Part shown: positions 39,916 through 44,670 of the stretch, piece by piece
How positions within the stretch are numbered: position 1 is the first letter of the stretch
Layout of the letters: the number at the start of each line of letters is the position of its first letter
Assembly: GCA_035574275.1 (NCBI GenBank)
Contig: DATLYY010000041.1
Coordinates: forward strand, 1-47,728
From: Verrucomicrobiia bacterium
GTDB lineage: Bacteria > Zixibacteria > MSB-5A5 > DSPP01
Length of the DNA stretch: 47,728 nt
Reading direction: 5' to 3'
Translations under genes and position numbers: made by a program
The notes under the pieces: model-generated
What the model was told of the DNA's origin: nothing
Seen by the model: the letters and a program-made list of their open reading frames with translations, nothing else
Databases searched by the model: none

Positions 39916-40950
39916 TTAGGTCTTTACTGTATAAATCTGCTTCCAAGCTCTATTTCCATTCCAACGGTCGGAAATAATCTCGTCTTTTTTGCCCAATAAG
40001 CAGTGACACCCCTCAAATTTAAGGCCAATTGCTTTCCAAATAGACGTATCCTCTTTGCAAAGGGCTACACTAATTTTTCTTTTGTCCAATCGGTCAACCG
40101 CAAATTTGAACATTTCGACTTGTGTTTCAAAGGGTAGTCGATATTTGAATCCGCTTGGATCCTTTTCAGAAAGCTTATCAAATATCGAGGCGTCCCGCCC
40201 ATTACGAGCGGTGTGTGCCTGTAGGGTGTTAGAAGCCCGTAAAGCTCCAATTGTTACCATTTCCGGCCCAATCGAGTTTATTTGGTCAAGGGCCCAAGCA
40301 TAACCCAATTTCCAATCATCGTAAGGCACCATCGGGTCCAACCGAAAGCGCACCGGCCAGCCCAGTTGTTTCATCTCCCATGCTGCCTGAAAACGTTTGG
40401 AGGGCGGTGGCGTACCGATTTCCCACTTTCTTCCCATTTCTTCCGAATTTACCGACCACGAAAACACGACCCTATCCGTAGGCGGTAGCTTTTTGGCAAA
40501 TTGGGTCATTACCGATTTGGTGAGAAAAATCAGCCGGTGACGTTTTTGTTGAGCAAAAAGAGGGATGAGCATTTCGGTTATAGATTGACCGGCATATTTC
40601 TTGTAAACTCCATCAAAAACCAAACCGTCCTGTAATTCACCAATCAAAAGCATCCTCGGAGTGGGCCATTCCAGCCACTTTTCCACTTCTTCAATCATCT
40701 GTTTCCAATTTGAAAAGATTGTCCCCATCAAATTGTAGTGACCGAAAACAAACGATGGAACCGCCTGCAAGAAGCAGTAGGAACACCGATACACGCACCC
40801 CGCCGCCACCACCAATTCCCAGAATTTGAAGCAAACAATTCCAGAATCTTCGTCTGGTCCTGTAAATTGTTTTATAAAAGAACCTCGGTGGACAGCGGGC
40901 ATTTGGTGATAACCACTGCCATTTGTTGAACGAATTTCTTGAGTCTTCAT
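39916..40950 (-). CDS. Radical SAM protein, partner of the TcmP-type gene
   Basis: A 344-residue radical SAM protein. The cluster motif is Cys52-x3-Cys56-x2-Cys59 in GCVYRCSYCFLQ, recalling spore photoproduct lyase (SplB). Other SplB-like signs are IFLTKS and FSWSVNSEE; a further Cys pair GCHC lies near the C-terminus. It could act on DNA or RNA, but no substrate is shown. The ATG at 40950 overlaps the TcmP-type stop (ATGA), so the pair is translationally coupled. Composition is more AT-rich than the flanking genes, indicating an acquired cassette. Confidence 0.8.
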   Translation of the reverse strand: MKTQEIRSTNGSGYHQMPAVHRGSFIKQFTGPDEDSGIVCFKFWELVVAAGCVYRCSYCFLQAVPSFVFGHYNLMGTIFSNWKQMIEEVEKWLEWPTPRMLLIGELQDGLVFDGVYKKYAGQSITEMLIPLFAQQKRHRLIFLTKSVMTQFAKKLPPTDRVVFSWSVNSEEMGRKWEIGTPPPSKRFQAAWEMKQLGWPVRFRLDPMVPYDDWKLGYAWALDQINSIGPEMVTIGALRASNTLQAHTARNGRDASIFDKLSEKDPSGFKYRLPFETQVEMFKFAVDRLDKRKISVALCKEDTSIWKAIGLKFEGCHCLLGKKDEIISDRWNGNRAWKQIYTVKT

Positions 40951-42059
40951 ACGTGTGGAAGAATATATACTAAATCATTCTTTTGAAGACCATCCTTTTT
41001 AGAAAATACCCTTTCTATTTTTACTAATGGTGGTGACTCTCTTTCGAGTTTCTTTAAAACTGCCCTATAGTGCTTTTCAATAAACGGTATTTCCCACGTT
41101 TCTTCGCGGATTTCGTCAAAGGTCATTTTCTTATCAGAAAAGTTCTTCAACAGGTAGTCACGCAACTCATACTCGGTTGGTGAACTTGAAAACAAAATTC
41201 CCTGAGCCGAGCCGCCATAGTCAAAAAGCCCTTCTTCATCGCCAAGCCGCCACATTACTTCCTTCATGAGTAGGGCAGCTTTTACATGATTCGAGGCGTG
41301 TATTAAATAATATTTAGTTCTGTTCCCCCTAATTTTGTCCTCTACATCAAAACGTATTCTAAAATGAAGTTTAAACCTTGCTTGTAGCTTACCCTTAAAA
41401 TATTCTAACATGCCAATTTCACGTTGAATTCCTCTATACCTTATAAATTCCTGCTTTTGCCATTCTTCGTCCCCAAACATTTTATTAAGCCGATCCTTCA
41501 CTTTAGGATTATTAATATCCATATTGATTCTAAAAAACATAAAATTAATGAGTGCTTCCGTGTATTTTTGACTTAGGATTTGGTTAAGAATTGGAATTGT
41601 TAGAGGATGACCATAAGGATCAACCATAAAAAAAGTAGGAGCCAAATTTTTAAATACATTCAATAAATTAGGAATTAGGTCGGTACTATCACCAGGTTGA
41701 ATATCTACAGTAAGATTTTTGGGATAAGGGTGCAGAGTCTTTAAAGCCTTTTGCAATAAAGTGAATTGCTTCGCATTATTTTCCACCAAGCCGACAGTCA
41801 TTTCCTTGCCTGGATATTTTCTTAAGAATTCTTTGGCTGTTTGAACCACAATAAGAGGAGAACCCTGTTCTTTTTTCCCCTTGTATTCATAAAAACCAGG
41901 ACCAGCGTAGCAATCGATATAATTAATACCATGCCAGAACGGCTGTGAGCCAAGAATTGTCTCCCAAACTGGCAGATATTTCTGCAAAATTGTGAGTTTA
42001 ATCTTGGAGACCTGTTTTAGATGCTCAAGACTTTCCATCTCCTCATTCTTTGCAGTCAC
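40947..42059 (-). CDS. tcmP: Three-Cys-motif partner protein (TcmP type)
   Basis: A 370-residue protein resembling the family named three-Cys-motif partner protein TcmP, found beside proteins with a CxxxCxxC motif and of unknown function. Residues 46-55 NYIDCYAGPG and the following EQGSPLIV look like a Rossmann methyltransferase-type nucleotide loop. FMVDPYGHPLTIP further on resembles motif IV. The start is GTG 42059 with AGGAGGGG just upstream; the in-frame ATG at 42161 lies inside the repressor gene. It lies 28 nt after the repressor and overlaps its radical SAM partner. Composition is AT-rich. Confidence 0.82.
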   Translation of the reverse strand: MTAKNEEMESLEHLKQVSKIKLTILQKYLPVWETILGSQPFWHGINYIDCYAGPGFYEYKGKKEQGSPLIVVQTAKEFLRKYPGKEMTVGLVENNAKQFTLLQKALKTLHPYPKNLTVDIQPGDSTDLIPNLLNVFKNLAPTFFMVDPYGHPLTIPILNQILSQKYTEALINFMFFRINMDINNPKVKDRLNKMFGDEEWQKQEFIRYRGIQREIGMLEYFKGKLQARFKLHFRIRFDVEDKIRGNRTKYYLIHASNHVKAALLMKEVMWRLGDEEGLFDYGGSAQGILFSSSPTEYELRDYLLKNFSDKKMTFDEIREETWEIPFIEKHYRAVLKKLERESPPLVKIERVFSKKDGLQKNDLVYILPHV

Positions 42060-42087
42060 TTGCCCCTCCTGAGTCAAAGTCGTTGCC

Positions 42088-42765
42088 TCAAAACTTCCTC
42101 CACTGCCACACCACTTTGCCCAAGATGACGCCGTCTTTTTTCGGCACCAAAAGCGGGCCATTGGCGTCTTCCCAGTCCGGGTTGACGGCCTTTAGGTGGA
42201 AGTGGTTTGGCTTGTTTTTTAGCTGTTTAACCGTCACCTCCGCCTCTCCCAGCCGGCAGGCGACAAAGGCCCCTTCCAAAAGGGCCGGGTCTTTCTGTGA
42301 AAAATCGACCGCCACCACGTCGCCGGAGGAAAAAACCGGCGCCATCGATTCCCCCACCACCTTGATGCAGTAGCAGTTCTCCTCGTTGGGCAACTGGTCT
42401 TTCGGCACCACCAAGAATGCTTCTATATCCAGCTCGTTTATTTCCCGCCCGGAACCGAGCGAGGCGGCATCCGCAAAAAGCGGCAGCGTGGCCAAAAACT
42501 TGGGCTGGAAGCCGTGCGCCCCGCGCTCCGGCGGCACAATGTTCAAAACCACCGGCGGCCGCACGGCCGACTCGTCCGTAAAGAAGCGGGAGGGCTCCAC
42601 CCCGATCCCTTTGGCGATTTTCGAAATTGTATCCGCCCGTGGGTCGGTTTGCCCTTCCTCGATTTTTTTCAAGGCCGTGTACTGCAGACCGGTCCGCCGG
42701 GCCAGTTGATACAAAGTCAGCCCCTTGGCCGTCCGCAGCGCTTTTATTCGTTCACCTATCTCCAT
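42088..42765 (-). CDS. XRE-S24 repressor with intact self-cleavage dyad
   Basis: A 225-residue LexA/CI-like repressor. Residues 1-60 form an XRE helix-turn-helix (LTLYQLARRTGLQYTALKKI). Residues 105-220 form an S24 domain with nucleophile Ser140 (VVGESMAP) and Lys180 (VTVKQL), so RecA-stimulated self-cleavage is plausible. The usual Ala-Gly scissile pair is not evident; SLGSG near residue 103 is the likely linker. ATG 42765 has GAGGTG upstream, better than the in-frame ATG at 42801. A strong promoter precedes it and the divergent SOS-like operon starts 183 nt away. It probably controls both sides and itself. Confidence 0.9.
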   Translation of the reverse strand: MEIGERIKALRTAKGLTLYQLARRTGLQYTALKKIEEGQTDPRADTISKIAKGIGVEPSRFFTDESAVRPPVVLNIVPPERGAHGFQPKFLATLPLFADAASLGSGREINELDIEAFLVVPKDQLPNEENCYCIKVVGESMAPVFSSGDVVAVDFSQKDPALLEGAFVACRLGEAEVTVKQLKNKPNHFHLKAVNPDWEDANGPLLVPKKDGVILGKVVWQWRKF

Positions 42766-42786
42766 TCTTTTCACCTCACTTTCATC

Positions 42787-42793
42787 TGTACTA
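42787..42793. promoter_or_regulatory. Candidate operator site 1
   Basis: TGTACTA, directly after the expected transcription start of the repressor gene. It is identical to 42862-42868, and the surrounding bases are similar (T-TGTACTA-(A/C)). Candidate recognition element for the XRE-S24 repressor. Confidence 0.4.
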
Positions 42794-42804
42794 ACTTCCA
42801 CATT

Positions 42805-42833: not shown

Positions 42834-42853
42834 GAAAAAAGATAAAAAAATAC

Positions 42854-42880
42854 TTGACTTTTGTACTACAACTTTATACT
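42854..42880 (+). promoter_or_regulatory. Promoter region of the rSAM-umuDC operon
   Basis: TTGACT (42854-42859) is followed by TATACT (42875-42880, 15-nt spacing) and TATAGT (42882-42887). The repeated CTTTATA-CTTTATA makes the exact -10 ambiguous. The TGTACTA motif lies between the -35 and -10 boxes. Confidence 0.65.
42862..42868. promoter_or_regulatory. Candidate operator site 2
   Basis: TGTACTA inside the spacer of the rightward promoter, a direct repeat of 42787-42793 at 75-bp distance. Binding here would block the operon encoding UmuC. Confidence 0.4.
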
Positions 42881-42947
42881 TTATAGTAAAATAGTATTAT
42901 ATGATAAATGAGTTTATTATTGAACAGATTGCAGAACAACAGATTAT

Positions 42948-44252
42948 ATGAGAAGATTAGGCCTTCTGGATAAGCTGAATATCCTTGGTGATACAATAAC
43001 CCCATCGGATACCGAGGGTCGCCCAAGACGGACAATCCCCATCCGCCAAGCAAATCAGGAAGTTCAAAGCGACCTTTCCGGAGCAATCCCGCCAACAACG
43101 GCTAAAAAAGTTGCCCTGCCGGGAATTATGCAATTGGCGGGGGTTCACGGGAGAACCTTCAATTTGATGCGGGTTATGCAGACCAACGCCTGCAGCTTGA
43201 AATGCCGCTACTGCGCCACCCGCTGCGGCCGCAAACTGCGCCGCACCATCTTCCAGCCGGAGGAGCTGGCCTCCGTTTTCTACGCCGCTCACAAAAAGGG
43301 GTACACGGACGGCCTTTTTTTGACCTCCGGCATCCCCGGATCACCGGTTTCGATGATGGATAAGCTTTTGGCCACGCTCGAAATCTTGCGCAAGCGCTAC
43401 AAATTCGGCGGCTACATTCATTTAAAAATCCTCCCCGGCGCCGAGCCGGAGCAAATTGTTCAGGCCGCCCGGCTCGCTTCACGCATCTCCCTGAACTGTG
43501 AAGCGCCGTCGGACGTCACCCTTTCCGAGATCGCCCCCGAAAAATCCCTTTCCAAAGTGATTTTGCCCTCCATCCAGAAAGCGGGGGAACTCTGGAAGGC
43601 CGGAAAACAGGAAGGGAAAAAGCTGGTGCCGATGGGGGTTACCACCCAGTTTATGGTCGGCCCGGGGCAGGAAAAAGACCGGGAAATCCTCTCGCTCGTT
43701 TCGCAGCTGGAAGGGAACGGATTCTTGCACCACGCCCATTTCTCCTCCTTTGCCCCGATGTCCGACACGCCGTTTGAGAATTTGGCCCCCACGCCGTTTA
43801 CCCGCGGCTATCGGCTTTATCAGGCCGAGCACTTGTTGCGCATCTACAAACTTTCGGTCAGCGATATTCCCCTCGAAAAGGACGGCAATCTTTCACTCGA
43901 ATTCGATCCCAAGCTCCACCGGGCGCTTCTGCATCCAGAACTCTTCCCGGTCGAAATAAAAACCGCTTCCTTTGAACAGCTTTTGACCGTTCCCGGCATC
44001 GGCCCTATCTCTGCTGGGCGTATTTTGACCGCCCGCCGGGAAGGGACGGTTTTTGAGCCGAAAGACTTGGCCCGGCTGGGAGTGCGCATCCGCCTGGCCA
44101 AAGAATTCGTCACCATCAATGGAGTGTACTTCGGCCAAACTCGGGAGGAAAGGCGGGAAGAGTATTTTCGGCAGCGCAAACCGGCCCGGCAGCTTTCACT
44201 TATTTCCCGCTATCCCATCGCCGGGGCCGTTTCTCCGGGGGCCTTTCGCTGA
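42948..44252 (+). CDS. Radical SAM protein with helix-hairpin-helix domain, DNA repair-linked
   Basis: A 434-residue protein with the radical SAM motif Cys82-x3-Cys86-x2-Cys89 (ACSLKCRYCATRC, with an extra Cys93). A helix-hairpin-helix DNA-binding element lies at about 339-370 (FEQLLTVPGIGPISAGRIL). The layout, including the N-terminal DKLNILGD segment, resembles the putative DNA modification/repair radical SAM family usually linked to a uracil-DNA glycosylase-like partner. That partner is absent here; UmuD- and UmuC-like genes follow instead, the first after 1 nt. No strong ribosome-binding site precedes the ATG. The reaction is unknown. Confidence 0.85.
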   Translation: MRRLGLLDKLNILGDTITPSDTEGRPRRTIPIRQANQEVQSDLSGAIPPTTAKKVALPGIMQLAGVHGRTFNLMRVMQTNACSLKCRYCATRCGRKLRRTIFQPEELASVFYAAHKKGYTDGLFLTSGIPGSPVSMMDKLLATLEILRKRYKFGGYIHLKILPGAEPEQIVQAARLASRISLNCEAPSDVTLSEIAPEKSLSKVILPSIQKAGELWKAGKQEGKKLVPMGVTTQFMVGPGQEKDREILSLVSQLEGNGFLHHAHFSSFAPMSDTPFENLAPTPFTRGYRLYQAEHLLRIYKLSVSDIPLEKDGNLSLEFDPKLHRALLHPELFPVEIKTASFEQLLTVPGIGPISAGRILTARREGTVFEPKDLARLGVRIRLAKEFVTINGVYFGQTREERREEYFRQRKPARQLSLISRYPIAGAVSPGAFR

Positions 44253-44253
44253 A

Positions 44254-44670
44254 ATGACACCCTACGTCCCGATGTTCAACCAGCCCCCCATCCGGGTTGC
44301 GGACGCTTCCGAAGAGGCCCCGGCCGCCGTCGGTTTTCCCTCCCCGGCTGAGCCGTTCGCCGAAAAGGTTTTGAACTTAAATGCCCGTTTGATAAAGCAC
44401 CCCGCCGCCACCTTTTTTCTTTCGGCCAAAGGGGATGCCTTGTTGGAGGCCGGTATCCGCCACGGCGATTTGCTGATTGTCGACCGCTCGCTGGAGTCCG
44501 CCCCCGGCCGGGTGGTCATCGCCGTAGTGGATGGCGAATTCACCGTCCAGTACTTCGAGCGGTTGAAAAAAAATCCCGCTCCCAAAAATCAGCCCAACGG
44601 CTCAAAAAGCCGTTCGGATAATCCCTTTGAAATCTGGGGAGTCGTCACCTATGTCATCCATCCTTTGTGA
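44254..44670 (+). CDS. umuD: UmuD-like protein lacking catalytic Ser and Lys
   Basis: A 138-residue homologue of UmuD, the polymerase V accessory subunit. Alignment by eye with E. coli UmuD is direct: AAVGFPSPA matches QCGFPSPA around the cleavage site, and the ends DGEFTV and WGVVTYVIHPL match DGEFTV and FGVVIHVV. However, the nucleophile position is Ala62 (AKGDALL instead of ASGDSMI), and the lysine position is Gln99 (EFTVQYF instead of EFTVKKL). The 37-residue spacing is exactly that of Ser60/Lys97. It should be unable to cleave itself. It starts 1 nt after the radical SAM stop and overlaps umuC by 20 nt. Confidence 0.9.
   Translation: MTPYVPMFNQPPIRVADASEEAPAAVGFPSPAEPFAEKVLNLNARLIKHPAATFFLSAKGDALLEAGIRHGDLLIVDRSLESAPGRVVIAVVDGEFTVQYFERLKKNPAPKNQPNGSKSRSDNPFEIWGVVTYVIHPL

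Follow-up and report, generated by a model that had tools for sequence, protein, structure and literature searches.

Organization of the locus

The window, that is the whole stretch of 47,728 nucleotides under analysis, contains a radical SAM-HhH gene followed by umuD and umuC, the genes of the mutagenic polymerase Pol V, and a divergent gene for a phage-type repressor (Table 1). The position of the radical SAM gene one nucleotide from umuD, at the head of a Pol V operon, which the earlier note had pointed out, is borne out by the reading frames (42948-44252, umuD ATG at 44254): the TGA stop codon (44250-44252) is followed by a single base and then by the umuD start. The umuC ATG at 44651 in turn precedes the end of umuD at 44670, so that these two genes overlap by 20 bases.

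Table 1. Features of the radical SAM-umuDC locus (positions in the window)
Feature	Position	Strand	Remarks
Divergent HTH_3 + S24 phage-type repressor	42088..42801	-	Ser/Lys dyad intact (GESM, TVKQL)
Promoter block TACTTGACTTTTGTACTAC	42851..42869	+	includes -35-like TTGACT; conserved in sister species
Block AAATAGTATTATATGA, candidate operator	42889..42904	+	conserved in sister species
Radical SAM-HhH gene, 434 aa	42948..44252	+	divergent TIGR03916 relative, partner-less branch; AlphaFold2 pLDDT 84
CxxxCxxC motif (C82/C86/C89) and non-conserved fourth Cys (C93)	43191..43226	+	
HhH motif, residues 337-360, VPGIGP	43956..44027	+	30.7 bits
umuD, 138 aa	44254..44670	+	NF007621 115.4 bits, above cut-off; S24 dyad and cleavage site lost
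UmuD Ala62 replacing catalytic Ser60 (GDSM to GDAL)	44437..44439	+	aligned to 1umu, 8gmt
UmuD Gln99 replacing catalytic Lys97 (TVKKL to TVQYF)	44548..44550	+	aligned to 1umu, 8gmt
umuC, 448 aa	44651..45997	+	domains IMS, IMS_C, DUF4113

Both the order repressor-radical SAM-umuD-umuC and the one-nucleotide gap recur in a second, congeneric and likewise uncultured species (loci L004 and L017, the latter labelled Candidatus Zixiibacteriota; window genome G000, sister species G001), whose radical SAM protein is 89% identical to that of the window. Purifying selection acts on each of the four genes, with dN/dS values between the two species of 0.08 (radical SAM), 0.09 (repressor), 0.22 (umuD) and 0.21 (umuC), and as dS ranges from 0.49 to 0.87 the arrangement has been maintained across real divergence rather than by chance. 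The radical SAM gene heading this Pol V operon is a real feature, a new variant of known parts that is conserved in one genus. Beyond the repressor, and before a phosphatidyltransferase-like gene, the window carries genes for a TcmP (three-Cys-motif partner) protein, which resembles the PADLOC candidate PDC-M30A, and an SPL-like radical SAM protein (39916-42161); both are missing from that site in the sister species.

The radical SAM-HhH protein

The protein belongs to the radical SAM superfamily by its CxxxCxxC motif and barrel (Pfam radical SAM domain, 34.6 bits) and to the HhH DNA-binding proteins by an HhH motif (residues 337-360, 30.7 bits), as had been anticipated, with a PGxG hairpin that is present in 79/79 homologues examined. 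By sequence, its C-terminal part matches the HhH domains of ComEA-type proteins and of polymerase X. HhH elements typically bind DNA in a structure-specific manner. An AlphaFold2 model built from 36 aligned sequences (mean pLDDT 84, pTM 0.80) is confident for the barrel and the HhH and unreliable for residues 19-53 and 410-434. In the PDB its fold is matched best by HydE, HydG and biotin synthase, with a TM of about 0.4 when scaled to the query length; these matches confirm the modelled radical SAM barrel and are uninformative on the substrate. A role in defence was discarded, as the protein has no match in PADLOC or PHROGs.

The breadth of these fold matches, which span small-molecule and RNA-directed radical SAM enzymes, would agree with an enzyme that modifies bases of DNA or RNA to some other end and is merely co-induced by damage, as would the CcrM-like DNA methyltransferase gene adjoining one relative. 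We consider such a role unlikely, given that the HhH is typical of structure-specific DNA binding and that a domain search of the protein found no RNA-modification domain.

The fourth cysteine that the earlier note had placed right after the CxxxCxxC motif does exist (C93). The position is, however, occupied by cysteine in only 8/77 homologues with a readable motif; these fall on scattered branches, and the three nearest relatives are not among them. C93 is therefore not a feature, let alone a hallmark, of the family, and an essential role as cluster ligand is unlikely.

Family placement

The only strong family match of the protein is TIGR03916 (rSAM_link_UDG, COG4277). The E value of 1.6e-82 substantiates the proposed relationship to the UDG-linked radical SAM family, though the score of 277.8 bits lies below the curated cut-off of 343.5 bits. 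Four UDG-linked proteins score 547-691 bits against the same profile, and six further proteins, five partner-less ones and that of the sister species, score 285-314 bits. In a tree of 68 proteins a branch with 100/100 support sets the window protein apart from the UDG-linked members. One side of this branch holds 18 UDG/DUF4130-linked rows and three others, among them L059, whose partner cannot be assessed because the locus reaches the contig end; the other side holds the two umuDC-linked rows together with 45 that are partner-less. We speak of a split and not of a sister relation, as the position of the root is not established. The partner-less side comprises many proteins of Chloroflexota, Myxococcota and Gemmatimonadota that have no UDG/DUF4130 partner, and within it the window protein clusters with Gemmatirosa kalamazoonensis and two genomes of another phylum (support 100/99).

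The earlier note had supposed that a UDG-linked member exchanged its usual glycosylase-like partner for UmuDC. The significant TIGR03916 match speaks for such a swap. Against it stand the score below the family cut-off, the location on the far side of the split from the UDG-linked rows, nearest relatives that are themselves partner-less, and an AU test, run without the long-branch row L078, that rejects a grouping of the window pair with the UDG-linked rows (p=0.00025). We reject the swap as highly improbable; of what had been claimed, the family relation, the HhH, the operon position and the presence of the fourth cysteine stand, while the change of partner falls.

A UDG-like/DUF4130 partner is neither adjacent nor fused to the protein, umuDC being adjacent instead. 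The search for such a gene elsewhere in the genome returned no TIGR03915 (DUF4130) match and a single UDG, of family 4 (221 bits against a cut-off of 125.3), located at another site between coaBC-like and dnaB-like genes. TIGR03915 is likewise missing from five genomes and one plasmid record carrying partner-less members. The Thermotoga maritima control genome matches TIGR03916 and not TIGR03915, which may mean that this cultured strain has a partner-less member, or may reflect a weak match to the HhH only. A large partner-less subfamily is now separated from the UDG-linked one, and a common function is therefore not required of both.

Distribution and gene neighbourhoods

The radical SAM protein occurs in 2/132 genomes of the phylum, those of the window and of the sister species, a pattern suggestive of acquisition by horizontal transfer. 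Among the matches listed for Chloroflexota, 78 long ones were counted, in 69/400 genomes; neighbours were checked at 30 retrieved Chloroflexota loci and at 30 in Myxococcota, where UDG-linked and partner-less kinds are both present. Other umuDC-linked members were found neither in the 132 genomes of the phylum nor at these 60 loci, nor in three IMG/VR scans and about 20 loci read in context from plasmids, phages, genome_contigs and IMG/VR, a subset of the matches (plasmid matches alone total 158). At the loci examined no umuDC genes lay within about 1.5-5 kb of another partner-less member. Among the loci examined, the umuDC link is thus confined to this genus. We found no report of this radical SAM subfamily in an umuDC operon in a literature survey of incomplete coverage, and none of the reaction or biochemistry of any radical SAM-HhH family member in the literature searched.

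The partner-less branch has no conserved neighbour at the loci read, where two adjacent metallophosphoesterases and four PAS proteins were seen, and the enzyme therefore works elsewhere without Pol V. The metallophosphoesterase genes directly follow the radical SAM gene in two Chloroflexota (L019:6071-6760 and L022:6287-6925), the second locus also having an SbcC-like gene upstream. In one Chloroflexota genome a UDG-superfamily gene scoring below the family-4 cut-off is divergent from the radical SAM gene (L031:2715-3305), and at L020:6038-7126 a CcrM-like DNA methyltransferase gene lies 12 bases after it. On a putative viral contig (L088:1859-5984), a divergent partner-less radical SAM-HhH gene that scores 287.9 bits against TIGR03916 is accompanied by two unknown genes and by a gene for a canonical LexA, which may be a further link to the SOS response.

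This distribution bears on the main rival to a coupling of lesion chemistry and Pol V, namely that a standalone radical SAM gene was acquired horizontally, came to lie ahead of umuDC and shares its promoter as a passenger that acts independently of bypass. Its restriction to one genus of the phylum, its nearest relatives in other phyla without umuDC and the standalone homologues of Chloroflexota and Myxococcota all agree with this view. A mere passenger would not, however, readily account for a one-nucleotide spacing and a gene order that survive strong synonymous divergence (dS 0.87), nor for the lowest dN/dS of the four genes. We regard it as a serious but rather unlikely explanation.

UmuD without its catalytic dyad

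The window UmuD is a member of its family (NF007621, 115.4 against 110 bits). Aligned to the UmuD'/UmuD structures 1umu and 8gmt it lacks the Ser60/Lys97 dyad and the Cys-Gly site of an autoproteolytic UmuD, the latter being replaced by Val-Gly (V26-G27). With the dyad residues absent, autocleavage appears very unlikely. Both residues are also gone from the UmuD of the sister species. Among the other UmuDs of the phylum a majority keep the dyad, but at L109, L114, L117, L118 and L119 the protein, which has umuC beside it in each case, is missing one catalytic residue or both. Judged from this alignment, in which the E. coli sequences match the PDB ones over the aligned part, loss of the dyad is recurrent, in about four lineages of the phylum. 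That Pol V is still active here we infer solely from selection on umuC. A natural UmuD devoid of both catalytic residues, with similar losses elsewhere in the phylum, makes Pol V function without UmuD cleavage testable.

Repressor and promoter

A TIGR00498 (LexA) search of the window assembly, which is 99.9% complete, pointed to two places only, the window UmuD and the repressor of this locus, which scores 44.4 against 110.95 bits; both are far below the cut-off. A canonical LexA therefore seems absent from the assembly, and these two are the only LexA-type S24 proteins of the genome. The repressor, whose closest PHROG is the phrog_4 repressor, retains the S24 Ser and Lys but has Ala-Ser-Leu-Gly at the position where LexA has Ala-Gly; as the canonical site is missing, its damage-induced cleavage is uncertain on sequence grounds.

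The promoter blocks TACTTGACTTTTGTACTAC and AAATAGTATTATATGA differ by one base in total between the two species, and AAATAGTATTATATGA has no second copy in the genome at up to 2 mismatches. A long palindrome common to the intergenic regions of both species was not found. The blocks would fit a local switch rather than a global regulon, with AAATAGTATTATATGA as a candidate operator only.

A possible lesion-processing and bypass cassette

Taken together, we favour as the best reading, at somewhat less than an even chance, that the locus is a self-contained, repressor-controlled cassette for lesion processing and bypass; that lesion chemistry is coupled to Pol V is likewise the best reading, held just as tentatively, and is plausible on gene context. 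In such a cassette the S24 phage-type repressor would control the divergent three-gene operon, from which Pol V and a radical SAM enzyme acting on DNA would be co-translated. The C-terminal HhH would take the enzyme to damaged or gapped DNA, where it may reverse or alter a base lesion by means of a 5'-deoxyadenosyl radical; the lesion would then either be repaired or become passable for the Pol V that the same mRNA encodes. Because the window UmuD probably cannot self-cleave, we propose that transcription, and not RecA-triggered cleavage, would determine Pol V output. Control by the adjacent repressor, damage induction, a DNA substrate and cooperation with Pol V are all four what we infer.

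The cassette is favoured by the tight operon, retained in two species despite differing flanking genes (TcmP, SPL-like), by the constraint on the radical SAM gene (dN/dS 0.08), by an HhH conserved across the family and a confident model of barrel and HhH, by the radical SAM enzymes that match its fold best, by the location of both LexA-type S24 proteins of the genome at this locus, and by two conserved promoter blocks, one of them unique in the genome. A related pair, COG4277-COG1573, is moreover predicted to be SOS-regulated in Bacteroidetes (PMC8565304). The lack of umuDC beside the other partner-less members examined, the lack of any one neighbour common to them and a repressor without the canonical Ala-Gly site argue against it. 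The fixed operon makes polymerase-stalling lesions candidate substrates of the radical SAM enzyme. A bolder version, a new type of bypass module in which the enzyme edits the lesion for a Pol V with permanently uncleavable UmuD, local repressor and lesion chemistry replacing RecA-driven cleavage control, seems to us doubtful.

Comparison with known systems

The UDG-linked TIGR03916 proteins, whose partners are TIGR03915/DUF4130 and UdgX, resemble the window protein in their radical SAM core and C-terminal HhH, their length (32-36% identity, approximately) and their SOS/repair gene contexts; SOS regulation of the COG4277-COG1573 pair in Verrucomicrobia and Alphaproteobacteria is cited from earlier reports (PMC8565304). 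The window protein differs in scoring below the cut-off, in lacking both a UDG or DUF4130 partner and the N-terminal SCxSSG-type motif that most of the UDG-linked members have, in its side of the tree and in its link to umuDC. The partner-less proteins of Chloroflexota, Myxococcota and Gemmatirosa kalamazoonensis are closer: they lie on its side of the tree, have its domains and are about 35-47% identical to it. An LHHxHFS motif and a C-terminal SPGxFR are common to it and the nearest three. The neighbours of these partner-less proteins are heterogeneous, and umuDC is near none of them at the loci examined. An association of DUF4130 with uracil DNA glycosylases and with SplB-like radical SAM proteins is on record (PMC3765255). 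SplB, the spore photoproduct lyase, is also a DNA-repair radical SAM protein of SOS contexts, but it is absent from the family matches of the window protein and from its 50 listed PDB fold matches.

With other umuDC operons the locus shares the overlapping umuD-umuC order and the DUF4113 of UmuC, whereas the leading radical SAM gene and the loss of the UmuD dyad set the window apart. Finally, like the S24 phage-type repressors of SOS genes (those of Bacteroidetes, PMC8565304, and HdiR), the window repressor is an HTH + S24 regulator beside pol V genes in a genome with no canonical LexA detected; different from these, it lacks Ala-Gly at the usual site, and its candidate operator occurs at this locus only.
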